Assembly: GCF_038593265.1 (NCBI RefSeq)
Contig: NZ_CP151979.1
Location: 558,001 to 622,000 of the forward strand
Source of the DNA: Ureibacillus sp. FSL W7-1570
GTDB lineage: Bacteria; Bacillota; Bacilli; Bacillales_A; Planococcaceae
Direction of reading: 5' to 3'
Length of the DNA: 64,000 nt
Part shown: positions 27,431 through 55,121 of the stretch, piece by piece
How positions within the stretch are numbered: position 1 is the stretch's first letter
How the letters are laid out: every line of letters begins with the position of its first letter
The notes under the pieces: generated by a model
The model's input: only the letters and a program-made list of their open reading frames with translations
Told to the model about the DNA's origin: nothing
Databases searched by the model: none
Position numbers and translations under genes: made by a program

Positions 27431-28070
27431 GTGCGCCTGGCATGGGTGTAATCTATAGGGTGTAAGTCCCGAACTGTGAAGGCAGAAGTAACAGTTAGCT
27501 TAACGCAAGGGTGTCCGTGGTGACGCGGAATCTGAAGGAAGCGAGCGGCAAACTTCCGGTCTGAGGAACACGAACTTCATATAAGGCTAGGTATCATTGG
27601 ATGAGTTTGCTAAACAAAACAAAGTCCTTTCTGCCAAAGGTGGTACAGAGTAAATGAAGCAGATAGATGGAAGGAAAGATTACATTCTTACCCGGGGAGG
27701 TCTGGCGGATATGTGAAGTACGCTTCATAACCTACTTAGTGATAAGTAGCTGAACCGTCAGAAGTCAGCAGAGGTCATAGTATTAGTTGGTTTAGAACTA
27801 CTAAGAAGGACCGAACAATTAAGAGAGAATAGCCCTTGGCATTCAGTGAGTCATGATGAACACAGAAAACGTAGTACCTCACTTGAGGAAGGAAGCGGTG
27901 AATCCCGTGGGAGACCTCTTGGAGGGTGGAGTGACCACTGGCATAAAGAGAACAGCTATTCACGGAGGTTATAAAAACTTGCGTCAATTATCTTAATTGA
28001 ACCGCCGTATACGGAACCGTACGTACGGTGGTGTGAGAGGACGGGAGTTAATCGCTCCCTCCTACTCGAT
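27431..28070 (+). mobile_element. ORF-less group IIC intron
   Basis: A ~640-base group II intron on the plus strand. The 5' end GTGCGCCTGGCATGGGTG and the long conserved domain I-III text (for example GTAACAGTTAGC, GGTGTCCGTGG, AAGGCTAGGTATCATTGG) recall the Geobacillus GsI-IIC type. Domain V is at 28001-28032: ACCGCCGTATACG, GAAC tetraloop, CGTACGTACGGTGGT. Domain VI follows and the 3' end is CTACTCGAT at 28070. No reverse transcriptase/maturase frame exists; domain IV holds only about 200 bases. It sits directly after a terminator hairpin, the class C target. The RNA could still be spliced or moved by a maturase acting in trans. Confidence 0.93.
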
Positions 28071-43798: not shown

Positions 43799-43963
43799 TT
43801 ATGCCGCTTCTTTAGTATATTTATTGAGCAGATGGTCCAACTGTTGGCTGCAATTTACAACTTCCGGATGTGTGAAACCAAGTTCTTGTGCTTTCCGGTA
43901 CATATCTTTTCTTTTTATTTCTATCACAACTTTTAACACTTTTTTGTATAGTGTGTTAAACAT
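43799..43963 (-). CDS. Spo0E-like aspartyl-phosphate phosphatase
   Basis: About 54 residues. Helix-turn-helix hairpin with IEIKRKDMYRKAQELG and NCSQQLDHLLNKY; SQQLD is the Spo0E-family SQELD signature that contacts Spo0A~P. These proteins dephosphorylate Spo0A and delay sporulation. ATG 43963 follows GGAGGAG well spaced; an in-frame ATG nine codons upstream has no such site. Confidence 0.82.
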   Translation of the reverse strand: MFNTLYKKVLKVVIEIKRKDMYRKAQELGFTHPEVVNCSQQLDHLLNKYTKEAA

Positions 43964-43990
43964 TTTTACTCCTCCAGTAAATTTGTTCAT

Positions 43991-44284: not shown

Positions 44285-44293
44285 AAGTTTAAA

Positions 44294-44332
44294 AAAAATT
44301 ATCATCCAAGGCCGGATGATAATTTTTTTATG
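44294..44332. terminator. Bidirectional terminator
   Basis: ATTATCATCC / GGATGATAAT hairpin around AAGGCC with T-run on plus and eight T on minus. It ends the microprotein pair on the minus strand. Confidence 0.9.
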
Positions 44333-44353: not shown

Positions 44354-44476
44354 TTATTTTGTGAAAGATAAGATGGCATTGTTTTTGTAAGTTTGCAACG
44401 CACGGACAGCTTCTTCTTTTGTATCGTATTCAAAGCAGCGGAAAGTGCCCGTTTCAAAAACTGTAACAACCCACAT
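44354..44476 (-). CDS. Microprotein of the MWV-T-VFE family, copy 1
   Basis: 40 residues starting MWVVTVFETGTFRCFEYDT and ending NNAILSFTK. Excellent AAGGAGGAATT ribosome site. It is paralogous to the proteins at 44546-44668 and 45714-45851: shared MWV(L/V)TVF, F/Y-R-x-(F/Y)-E, an acidic-basic helix (KEEAVRALQ) and a final (A)-(I/F)-L-S-(F/Y)-T. A strand-strand-helix-strand fold is likely. It reads about 70 bases downstream of copy 2 and probably in the same transcript. Function unknown; one extra Cys at 14. Confidence 0.8.
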   Translation of the reverse strand: MWVVTVFETGTFRCFEYDTKEEAVRALQTYKNNAILSFTK

Positions 44477-44545
44477 TCAGAATTCCTCCTTCATGTTTTT
44501 TTCACCGAAAACTTTTATATCTATCGCCACTGTTTTTCATTTCAA

Positions 44546-44668
44546 TTATTTTGTAAAGGACAAAAATGCGGATTTACCGAATTTTTGAAGTGCCATTGTA
44601 GCTTCGCTTTTTTCCACAAATTCAAAGATTCGATAAGAATTTTTTTCAAATACAGTAAGTACCCACAT
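44546..44668 (-). CDS. Microprotein of the MWV-T-VFE family, copy 2
   Basis: 40 residues starting MWVLTVFEKNSYRIFEF and ending KSAFLSFTK, with GAAGGAG upstream. First gene of a two-gene unit with copy 1. Its upstream DNA (44697-44811) is strongly conserved with that of copy 3: two palindromes, a TACAAT -10 and a TGTGA-N6-TCACT box. Family not recognised by name; similar short proteins are familiar as uncharacterised in Bacillaceae. Confidence 0.82.
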   Translation of the reverse strand: MWVLTVFEKNSYRIFEFVEKSEATMALQKFGKSAFLSFTK

Positions 44669-44696
44669 CGAGGGATCAAACTCCTTCAATATAATT

Positions 44697-44811
44697 TTGT
44701 TATATAACAATTCCTTTGGTTTTTGTTATCCAAGAAATTGTTATATATCAATTTCAAGTTCATTGTACACCCTGAAAACCAAAAAGAAAATAGTTAGTGA
44801 AACTTTTCACA
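44697..44811 (-). promoter_or_regulatory. Duplicated regulatory cassette, copy at microprotein 2
   Basis: In minus-strand order: TGTGAAAAGTTTCACT (44796-44811), 28 bases, TACAAT -10 (44762-44767), imperfect palindrome TTGATATATAACAA (44738-44751) and perfect palindrome TTGTTATATAACAA (44697-44710). Palindrome starts are 41 bases apart, close to four helical turns. The first box fits both Fnr (TGTGA-N6-TCACT) and Rex-like (TTGTGAA-N4-TTCACAA) sites; the palindromes would bind an unidentified repressor. Confidence 0.7.
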
Positions 44812-44895
44812 TTTTGTTCAAGATGATTGCGTTTTCAAATTCAACAAATCTTCACAACTGTTTTTTATTATTTTTATAAAATATATATAAAGGGG

Positions 44896-44935
44896 AAAAT
44901 CCAGCGAAAAAATTTGTTTTCGCTGGATTTTTCGT
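44896..44935 (-). terminator. Intrinsic terminator of the helical-repeat protein gene
   Basis: AATCCAGCGAAAA / TTTTCGCTGGATT hairpin directly after the stop; T-run on the minus strand is short (TTTTCCCC). Confidence 0.7.
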
Positions 44936-45541
44936 TTATTCGATTAAATGTTTATAATGATGTTTTGGAAATTCGATTCCGATTTGTTCAAATTCTTTTT
45001 CCGCTTCTTCAAGGAGTTGCTTCACTTTTTCTTTCGTTTCATCATTTAATTCTTGTCTCTTTGGCAATTCGATCCCCAATTCTTTGAATTTTTCATCGGC
45101 TTTTTCCCGGGTGATGGCACCACTTTTCAGTTCTTTCATAATTTCTTTTGCCTTTTCTTTTGTTTCATCATCAAGATTTTCAAAGATTTTACAATTTTCT
45201 TTTTTAGGCAGCACCCCTAATTGTTCGAGTTTTTTATCCGCTTCTTCTGATGTGATTTTGCCTTCATCCAAATCTTTGATAATGGCTTTGACCTGTTGTT
45301 GTGTCTCTTCATCTAACCTTGAAATGATTTCATGAACATTCGGATGATCAATTTTTACTCCCAATTTTTCAAGTTCTTCATGTAAATGATTTAAAATTTG
45401 ATCCACTTGTTGTTTCTTTTCATCATCCAACTGTTCGTATTCTTTAATAAAGGATGAATGATAGTGCGCTTCGATTTCGGAAGGCACAAGGACAAATCCA
45501 AAGGCGAATAAGCATATGAAAAAGGAGAACAGTTTTTTCAT
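44936..45541 (-). CDS. Secreted helical-repeat protein, unknown
   Basis: About 201 residues. Signal peptide 1-25 (MKKLFSFFICLFAFGF, then SEIEAHY). The mature part is four degenerate ~38-residue repeats, each L(D/N)(D/E)E(T/K)...K..(I/L).....(E/D)......A(D/E)..(F/L)..(L/I)G(V/I).(L/I/F)PK, highly charged and helical. A single Cys lies in repeat 2/3 (ENCKIF). ATG 45541 follows GAGGTGAT; the upstream in-frame start lacks a site. No enzyme motif is visible, so a binding, metal-buffering or wall-associated role is only guesswork. Confidence 0.72.
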   Translation of the reverse strand: MKKLFSFFICLFAFGFVLVPSEIEAHYHSSFIKEYEQLDDEKKQQVDQILNHLHEELEKLGVKIDHPNVHEIISRLDEETQQQVKAIIKDLDEGKITSEEADKKLEQLGVLPKKENCKIFENLDDETKEKAKEIMKELKSGAITREKADEKFKELGIELPKRQELNDETKEKVKQLLEEAEKEFEQIGIEFPKHHYKHLIE

Positions 45542-45648
45542 CAATATCACCTCATCCAATGTGTTTTTCACTAATTCTTATACTTCCCAAAAATCACGAA
45601 GAAAAAAGTGAAGAATATTGGCAGTTCCGACAGAAAAATCTAGTGAAA

Positions 45649-45682
45649 TCAAAAAAAATAAGGAGCAATAAATGCTCCTTGA
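45649..45682 (-). terminator. Intrinsic terminator after microprotein 3
   Basis: AAGGAGCA / TGCTCCTT hairpin (45660-45680) followed on the minus strand by ATTTTTTTT. Confidence 0.9.
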
Positions 45683-45713
45683 ATGTATGGCCAAAAGTCT
45701 GTTTGAAAGGGGG

Positions 45714-45851
45714 TTAAGCAACCAAAGTCAAGTTTGTGTAAGAAAGGATGGCTGGCAGTTGGATTTCTTCCATTACTTTCATTGCTTCTTCTTTCGTTTC
45801 GAACTCATAAATCCGGAATGTTTCGCCATCAAAAACTGTTAGCACCCACAT
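45714..45851 (-). CDS. Microprotein of the MWV-T-VFE family, copy 3
   Basis: 45 residues starting MWVLTVFDGETFRIYEFET, helix KEEAMKVMEEI, then PAILSYTN and a five-residue extension absent in the other copies. TAGGAGGCG ribosome site at good distance. It is a single-gene transcription unit with its own terminator and the same promoter cassette as copy 2. Conservation of regulation as well as protein argues that it is functional. Confidence 0.82.
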   Translation of the reverse strand: MWVLTVFDGETFRIYEFETKEEAMKVMEEIQLPAILSYTNLTLVA

Positions 45852-45877
45852 GGTTTACGCCTCCTAATTCCATAAAT

Positions 45878-45986
45878 TTGTTATATAACACCGCAATCGG
45901 TCATTTCTATTGTTATATATCAATCTTTTCAATTACATTGTACGCTTAATGTTGAAAAAAAGAAAGAGTTAGTGAATTTTTTCACA
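45878..45986 (-). promoter_or_regulatory. Duplicated regulatory cassette, copy at microprotein 3
   Basis: Minus-strand order: TGTGAAAAAATTCACT (45971-45986), 28 bases, TACAAT -10 (45937-45942), TTGATATATAACAA (45910-45923), GTGTTATATAACAA (45878-45891). The box-to--10 distance is identical to copy 2, while the palindromes are 32 bases apart, about three helical turns. Weak -35 sequence suggests activator dependence. Confidence 0.7.
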
Positions 45987-54748: not shown

Positions 54749-54852
54749 ATAAATGAATCGAAATAACCAAGTTTGTTAGTTTTATAAAATCATGTAAAAT
54801 TGAAAAATCCATATGGTATAATGTAGGAAACAACAGAATTATTATGTTTTTT

Positions 54853-54934
54853 TGCAGGGGTGGCCGAGTGCCTGAGAAGGTGAAAACACCTAACCCTTTG
54901 AACCGGATGCAGCCAGTACTGCCGTAGGGAGCAA
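54853..54934 (+). promoter_or_regulatory. TPP riboswitch, first of a tandem pair
   Basis: GCAGGGGTGGCC, GCCTGAGAAGG, ACACCTAACCCTTTGAACC and CCGTAGGGAGCAA are the thi-box landmarks. It carries GAACCGGAT where the consensus and the second copy have GAACCTGAT. An extended -10 promoter TGGTATAAT lies at 54814-54822. Its own terminator GCTCTCCAA / TTGGAGAGC with T-run is at 54968-54996. Confidence 0.95.
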
Positions 54935-54967
54935 TACATGAATTCATAGATGGATATTGTGTATTTT

Positions 54968-54997: not shown

Positions 54998-55018
54998 TAC
55001 ATAGGGAATTTTGGAAAT

Positions 55019-55100
55019 TGCAGGGGTGGCCTGGTGCCTGAGAAGGTGGAAACACCTAACCCTTTGAACCTGATGCAGTTAGCACTGCCGTAGGGAGCAA
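55019..55100 (+). promoter_or_regulatory. TPP riboswitch, second of a tandem pair
   Basis: Same length as the first copy with about seven substitutions and the consensus GAACCTGAT. It is followed by its own terminator at 55124-55158 (ATGCTCTTTTGC / GCAAAAGAGCAT, T-run) and then thiM. Two complete aptamer-terminator units in series give a sharper, more digital response to thiamine pyrophosphate. Confidence 0.96.
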
Positions 55101-55121
55101 TTGAAGATACTTGCAGTCTTT

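Follow-up and report, generated by a model that had tools for sequence, protein, structure and literature searches.

What might three very small paralogous genes do for a cell, and under which conditions would their products be made? The question is raised by a 64,000-nt stretch of Ureibacillus sp. FSL W7-1570 (contig NZ_CP151979.1, positions 558,001 to 622,000; "the window" denotes this whole stretch of DNA), whose minus strand carries open reading frames for three paralogous microproteins of 40 to 45 amino acids (aa), termed P1, P2 and P3. The reading favoured here, with a probability of a little under one half (about 0.47), is that they belong to a lineage-specific family of soluble beta-beta-alpha-beta microproteins, which would be made from a promoter reading carbon and redox state and would act as reversible modulators of a central-metabolic or respiratory enzyme. 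Beyond the family itself, it is the control region that is new.

Three Conserved Microprotein Genes

The genes are listed with the ratio of non-synonymous to synonymous substitution rates (dN/dS) against their orthologues in two Ureibacillus species (loci L054 and L055) and, for P2, with the predicted local distance difference test score (pLDDT) of its model.

44354-44476, minus strand: P1, 40-aa microprotein gene, second in the presumed P2-P1 unit; orthologue dN/dS 0.15 (L054) and 0.08 (L055)
44546-44668, minus strand: P2, 40-aa microprotein gene, first in the presumed P2-P1 unit; orthologue dN/dS 0.13 and 0.20; AlphaFold2 pLDDT 93.1
45714-45851, minus strand: P3, 45-aa microprotein gene with C-terminal LTLVA and its own promoter; orthologue dN/dS 0.09 and 0.15; tail type in 15/15 members

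The preliminary description of this DNA, made from the letters alone, had proposed these three paralogues, with which both the translations (P1, MWVVTVFE..AILSFTK; P2, MWVLTVFE..AFLSFTK; P3, MWVLTVFD..AILSYTNLTLVA) and the 15 invariant columns of the three-protein alignment agree. The common beginning and ending that it read from them describe P1 and P2, whereas P3 goes on past LS(F/Y)T with the tail NLTLVA. Identity to P3 is 50% for P1 and 45% for P2, and a search of the complete 3.28-Mb genome with P3 returned P1-P3 as the sole matches at E ≤ 10; a profile search counted a fourth match in this genome, weak, unlisted and not identified.

Selection for function, previously argued from the presence of diverged copies, is borne out by the substitution rates. 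Comparison of the window with the two Ureibacillus species gave dN/dS values of 0.08-0.20 in 6/6 cases with the frame kept, and the ratio of non-synonymous to synonymous differences (pN/pS) at three Lysinibacillus sites was 0.10, 0.14 and 0.17 over 120, 91 and 28 pairs, sums from which L092 (bio site) and L120 (123 nt; site C) are excluded. Synonymous changes are thus far in excess, and among the paralogues of the window the synonymous sites are saturated or nearly so. Judged by these rates, P1, P2 and P3 are genuine conserved protein genes under strong purifying selection.

Orthologues with a conserved frame are present in many genera. A profile built from the three rows matched 143/261 genomes of the taxonomic family at E ≤ 0.1 (15/19 genera) and 137/261 at the stricter E ≤ 0.001 (13/19 genera), with 1-6 matches per matching genome, while only 2/398 genomes of a phylum-wide sample matched at E ≤ 0.001, one of the two being the genome studied here; the profile searches at order and at family level covered one and the same set of 261 genomes. 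Among the matches listed for one peptide pattern were Ureibacillus, Lysinibacillus, Sporosarcina, Psychrobacillus, Metasolibacillus, Metalysinibacillus and Caryophanon, as well as one locus each under the labels Bacillus ndiopicus, Peribacillus asahii and Arthrobacter, and the best relative of P3 among the matches listed was found in Ureibacillus terrenus (91% identity). The search of Bacillales that had been suggested therefore found orthologues, but the family, as far as these genomes tell, is concentrated in Lysinibacillus, Ureibacillus, Sporosarcina and relatives and is not Bacillales-wide.

With P3 as the query, four plasmid records and no phage records matched. On one annotated Lysinibacillus plasmid the microprotein copy is uncovered by any listed gene, in agreement with the earlier expectation that gene callers would miss such genes, although the gene table is incomplete by design. 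Stable positions of the genes in Lysinibacillus lie beside the bio genes, beside cggR-gapA and at a third site. Five closely similar tandem copies stand in Caryophanon latum (L127:3256-4123), the largest array among the loci read. A plasmid record labelled Stenotrophomonas rhizophila (L271, CP065518.1) holds a copy 40% identical to P3, for which mislabelling, contamination or transfer is possible, and a record labelled Arthrobacter beigongshangensis (L131), possibly mislabelled too, holds one with the usual promoter of the family.

A Small Predicted Fold and Two C-Terminal Forms

Structure and library searches were based on a set of 79 members, consisting of the three window proteins and 76 of the 95 distinct members, the other 19 being left out. 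AlphaFold2 modelling of P2 with the 79 sequences (pLDDT 93.1; predicted template modelling score 0.65) gave strands at residues 2-8 and 11-17, a helix at 20-33 and a strand at 34-38, the same strand-strand-helix-strand topology that had been anticipated from the residue pattern. M1, T5, F7 and A23 are invariant across the set, and more than 90% of its members retain each of W2, V3, R13, F15, E16, E22, A34, L36 and T39. The maximum 19-residue hydropathy is 1.08, which is not membrane-like, and cysteine is present in 10/79 members.

Scans of the 79 members against Pfam, NCBIfam, PHROGs and PADLOC, with membership set at the curated score or at E ≤ 0.001 where none exists, gave nothing significant (best E 0.015, 0.092, 0.0033 and none, respectively). 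The strongest of the weak library relatives are two unnamed PHROGs with best E values of 0.0033 and 0.0045, the second matched by 11/79 members. No significant relative was returned by a sequence search of the PDB, nor by Foldseek against the PDB and viral models, where a topoisomerase IV fragment appeared weakly at E 0.36, and nothing on the family was found in the literature listings searched. The impression that these proteins are uncharacterised thus stands: no library tried names the family, and these conserved 40-45-residue proteins are apparently unnamed.

The longer form is set apart by its end. All 15 of the 45-aa members in the family alignment A3 terminate in -LVA (10), -LIA (2), -LAA (2) or -FVA (1). 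Such -LAA/-LVA-like ends in ssrA tags mark ClpXP substrates, and by analogy the 45-aa form would be short-lived.

A Rigidly Organised Promoter

P2 and P3, unlike P1, are preceded by the same regulatory cassette, as had been noticed at the outset. P2 and P1, separated by 69 nt, look like one transcription unit closed by a terminator-like hairpin with a T run, and P3 is a separate unit with a terminator-like hairpin of its own. A Shine-Dalgarno-like run stands before each gene; the AAGGAG of P2 lies ~12 nt from its ATG, a longer spacing than usual. The elements are as follows.

44824-44837, minus strand: cre-like site TGAAAACGCAATCA upstream of P2 (CcpA class)
44795-44812, minus strand: P2 redox-type operator ATGTGAA-N4-TTCACTA (Rex/ResD/Fnr class), family-wide consensus
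44762-44767, minus strand: P2 putative -10 box TACAAT, 44 nt after the start of TGTGA
44738-44751, minus strand: first palindrome of the P2 leader, TTGATATATAACAA
44697-44710, minus strand: second palindrome of the P2 leader, TTGTTATATAACAA, 41 nt from the first
44678-44689, minus strand: P2 Shine-Dalgarno region
44483-44492, minus strand: P1 Shine-Dalgarno region
44291-44329, minus strand: terminator-like hairpin after P1
45970-45987, minus strand: P3 redox-type operator ATGTGAA-N4-TTCACTA, family-wide consensus
45937-45942, minus strand: P3 putative -10 box TACAAT, 44 nt after the start of TGTGA
45910-45923, minus strand: first palindrome of the P3 leader, TTGATATATAACAA
45878-45891, minus strand: second palindrome of the P3 leader, GTGTTATATAACAA, 32 nt from the first
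45858-45867, minus strand: P3 Shine-Dalgarno region
45651-45680, minus strand: terminator-like hairpin after P3

One promoter architecture recurs across many genera in the upstream regions read. For its quantification, 119 family hits were reduced to 92 first genes (ATG start, at least 220 nt upstream) and, after removal of near-copies, to 74 promoters. The Rex-type consensus TTGTGAA-N4-TTCACAA was found within two mismatches in 58/74, against 0.1 per shuffled set, and the Crp/Fnr-type core TGTGA-N6-TCACA at 0-1 mismatch in 61/74, where 0.6 were expected. Because earlier counts of flank conservation had been picked by the same consensus and were partly circular, they were repeated with the shorter core TGTGA-N6-TCAC, for which 62/74 promoters qualify; the next A is kept in 62/62 of these sites and the T that precedes the second half in 52/62, and the consensus in the family reads [TA]TGTGAA-N4-TTCAC[AT][AT]. 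Counted from the start of TGTGA, the first -10 hexamer begins after 44 nt in 58 promoters and after 45 nt in 3; it was not found in one of the 62. Half-sites of the type TTTGTGAA are those of ResD. A cre site, WTGNAARCGNWWWCAW within one mismatch anywhere in the 220 nt, occurs in 34/74 promoters against 0.5 expected by shuffling; within the window a cre-like site is seen only at P2, none being evident by eye for P3. Taken together, these motifs strongly imply that microprotein control responds to carbon source and oxygen or redox state.

Paired Palindromes in the Leaders

Between the -10 box and the gene, many leaders carry a second conserved element, a pair of TGTTATNNAACA-like palindromes. 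With a pair defined as two sites, each with at most four mismatches to TTGTTATATAACAA and 20-60 nt apart, 72 of 115 distinct upstream regions contained one, spaced by 30-32 nt in 14, by 40-43 nt in 55 and otherwise in 3, while shuffled controls gave 12 pairs in 595, three of them at 32, 42 or 43 nt. Three and four helical turns of DNA correspond to 31.5 and 42 bp, and the pair is therefore read as two putative protein sites on one face of the DNA. From the end of the pair to the start of the microprotein gene the distance is 27-32 nt at almost all the loci checked, and 55 and 58 nt at two others. In print, as far as the sources found were accessible, the palindrome appeared only in one unrelated virus paper.

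The pair is not confined to the microprotein genes. Across 25 genomes from the genus group, an exact pattern that allowed spacings of 26-44 nt gave 38 hits, 37 of them at 30-32 or 41-43 nt by hand count. Those outside the microprotein genes lie upstream of cstA in G000, G252 and G253, of a second cstA-type gene in six genomes (G234, G235, G236, G237, G247 and G255), where the five pairs matched by script stop 70-72 nt short of the ATG and that of G247 was read by eye, and of dctA in G252, with one more inside a gene of G257; dctA has a pair in two genomes altogether. In the genome studied here, convincing pairs stand before P2, P3, cstA and dctA, the last with four mismatches in one arm. A second pattern, run over all 261 genomes, found pairs in 37, and 29 of the 30 hits with a stored locus precede a microprotein gene. 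Two pairs were set aside: that of G031 has a spacing of 38 and is flanked by a two-component system and a transporter, and that of G257 has a spacing of 28 and lies within a gene.

The glyoxylate-shunt genes extend this set. In three genomes of group g12 (G070, G072 and G074) the pair precedes the isocitrate lyase gene aceA, and G074, whose genes were named by eye, has a further pair upstream of malate synthase G; Pfam supports the assignment of the G070 enzymes, of two CstA proteins and of the dicarboxylate symporter. Among 11 chosen genomes aceA was found in 10, and in all 10 it is preceded by CTGTTATATA/CTGTTATGNAACAG, spaced by 30 nt in seven and 31 nt in three. In both aceA regions read (L247, G000:C1:2535500-2543500; L248), a gene for a LytTR-domain regulator is divergent from aceA, which makes this protein a candidate acetate/glyoxylate regulator, as its position suggests. 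Relatives of it occur in 245/261 genomes at E ≤ 1e-20, and a LytTR paralogue adjoins an acetyl-CoA hydrolase/CoA-transferase-like gene (named by eye). The aceA-linked regulator itself has 223-235 aa with an N-terminal part without an assigned family, and the conserved palindrome pair lies between its gene and aceA.

Proposed Role

From these elements a mechanism may be put together. The promoter of P2-P1 and that of P3 would read carbon and redox state through the putative operators, and the palindromes would be candidate sites of a regulator that also controls the use of pyruvate, C4-dicarboxylates and acetate/glyoxylate. A protein bound to the pair at the microprotein genes would be in a blocking position, downstream of the -10 box and ahead of the Shine-Dalgarno sequence, whereas at cstA, dctA and most aceA genes the pair leaves space for a downstream promoter; the microproteins may therefore be controlled in the opposite sense to the uptake and glyoxylate genes. 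The weakest step comes next, in which the microprotein would act as a reversible modulator by binding an enzyme of central metabolism or respiration, probably the simplest role for a protein that is very small and not membrane-like. Flux would then be tuned at the protein level when the carbon source or oxygen changes; the 40-aa forms would be stable, and the -LVA/-LAA-like end of the 45-aa form would give it a short life. A bolder version, which seems rather improbable, combines stable 40-aa and self-destructing 45-aa forms into a carbon-metabolism switch, in which the redox site, cre and an acetate-regulon operator opposite in sign to the glyoxylate shunt would keep the enzyme clamped on preferred carbon and the protein would be quickly cleared on acetate, pyruvate or C4 acids.

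Several observations weigh against the favoured reading. The fixed distance from operator to -10 box favours an activator over a plain Rex repressor, and the counts above were set against single-base shuffles, with upstream regions and tails that are related and not independent. The pair is missing from 43/115 upstream regions, second genes of units included, and was not seen by eye in the Sporosarcina leaders read or in Psychrobacillus L083, while the reversed control pattern still gave 13 hits against 38 for the true one. The sites at aceA differ from TTGTTATATAACAA at 6-8/28 positions, which leaves a common regulator there as only an inference. Groups g11 and g12 carry pairs yet have only distant LytTR relatives (best E ~1e-27 to 1e-32), so that another protein would have to bind there, and in g11, where a microprotein gene carries the pair (G065, L280), G065 has no aceA; for both reasons LytTR stays a candidate regulator and not a result. 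In g12, moreover, the positional contrast fails, since ~26 nt separate the end of the pair from aceA, and 17 nt from the malate synthase G gene. Clustering of the gene neighbours of 79 loci gave a few stable sites and no partner common to them, and since the neighbours differ from site to site the surroundings name no partner.

Alternative Explanations

Two alternatives concern the control region. Of all the rivals the most serious, although still doubtful, is that the redox-type operator is bound by a Crp/Fnr-type activator and not by Rex or ResD, for which the 61/74 sites with the Crp/Fnr core, the constant 44-45 nt to the -10 box and three Crp-type helix-turn-helix (HTH) matches in the genome studied here all speak. 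The conserved A and T, however, lie outside the Crp/Fnr core, and the centre of the operator falls near -48.5 by our own count, compared with the usual class II position of -41.5. Moreover, at least 10 genomes with microprotein genes lack a Crp-type HTH match at E ≤ 1e-6, and G169, G177 and G208 keep the operator with no HTH_Crp_2 match at that threshold, an absence that is not proven because the search scored 21 candidates per genome. It is unlikely that the leader is chiefly an RNA device, in which pairing of the two arms forms a hairpin in the 5' untranslated region and so adjusts how stable the mRNA is or how well it is translated, with the palindromes not being protein sites at all. The leaders do fold well (-18.3 kcal/mol for P2, z -6.9; -9.5 for P3, z -3.2; -15 for L054, z -4.5), and full elements have a mean z of -2.5 over 51 non-redundant cases relative to single-base shuffles; of the seven pieces folded, L057, L065 and L076 stop short of a full second arm and are little informative. 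Yet the loops by themselves show no folding beyond that of shuffles (mean z -0.24), similar pairs also precede cstA, dctA and aceA, and the cstA element, at z 0.44, folds no better than shuffles either. Loop lengths are 16-18 or 26-30 nt, with 0/51 at 19-25, a gap that helical phasing requires and a hairpin does not.

The other two concern the proteins themselves, and both are less probable still. Membership in the YhzD-like family PF14120, itself uncharacterised, appears very improbable: one of the 79 members matches PF14120 at E 0.097 and a 21-column profile match links the family to the YhzD of the same genome (pairwise E 0.0043), but these scores are far below the PF14120 gathering score (27 bits), the hhalign probability is 8%, and YhzD is encoded there by a separate gene of 61 residues. 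Hardly any weight at all is given to the notion that the microproteins are selfish or phage-derived elements serving as a toxin or in defence, with a copy number that reflects mobility. Small size and 1-6 matches per genome would suit it, the simple fold recurs, with weak scores, in many small proteins of phages (best E 0.17), and phrog_3627 is the PHROG weakly matched by 11/79 members (best E 0.0045). Against it stand the lack of any PADLOC or phage-record match, the lack of a membrane-like segment, the stable positions in Lysinibacillus at the bio genes, cggR-gapA and the third site, the strong purifying selection and a control region of metabolic type.

Neighbouring Features of the Window

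Other features of the window stand apart from the microprotein genes.

44936-45541, minus strand, between P3 and P2: 201-aa secreted-looking protein with repeated helical units and no Pfam family above the cut-off
43799-43990, minus strand, adjoining the microprotein genes: Spo0E-like protein (PF09388, E 1.2e-16)
54846-54947 and 55012-55113, plus strand: tandem thiamine pyrophosphate (TPP) riboswitches with 64 nt between them
27514-28070, plus strand: parts of a group II intron (D1-D4 and Intron_gpII matches)

Significance and Comparison with Known Systems

The family considered here is a conserved multi-copy group of small proteins, unnamed in the libraries searched, under a rigidly organised promoter. 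Since this promoter says when to look, namely under oxygen limitation, at carbon shifts and during the use of acetate or pyruvate, an otherwise anonymous family becomes testable. The paired palindrome in turn marks cstA, dctA, aceA and malate synthase G as members of a candidate regulon for the use of non-sugar carbon in Lysinibacillus and relatives, with LytTR as the candidate regulator.

Among known systems, the Rex operator of Staphylococcus aureus has the consensus TTGTGAAW4TTCACAA according to the portion of PMC2883068 available, and the family operator resembles that of the Rex-repressed genes described there in lying within 1-2 mismatches of it in 58/74 promoters. It differs in being fixed 44-45 nt before the -10 box, which fits activation better than repression, and no search for rex was made. 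In Bacillus, SR1P and comparable small proteins have ~40 residues, are under carbon-linked control and bind a central enzyme. The present proteins, likewise ~40 residues long and putatively under carbon-linked control, are like SR1P in this description and differ in having no conserved cysteine. The YhzD-like family PF14120 also consists of short proteins with a TxFE..EF..EA-like stretch, as seen here; a YhzD of 61 residues encoded by its own gene in the same genome, and the lack of a significant match, set the two apart. In Escherichia coli, BtsT is under LytTR-type control. CstA and BtsT are pyruvate transporters there, as stated in the accessible part of PMC7730263. The organism and the operator are different here, but the likeness to the E. 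coli system is that the CstA-type genes carry paired palindromes and that a LytTR gene faces aceA.

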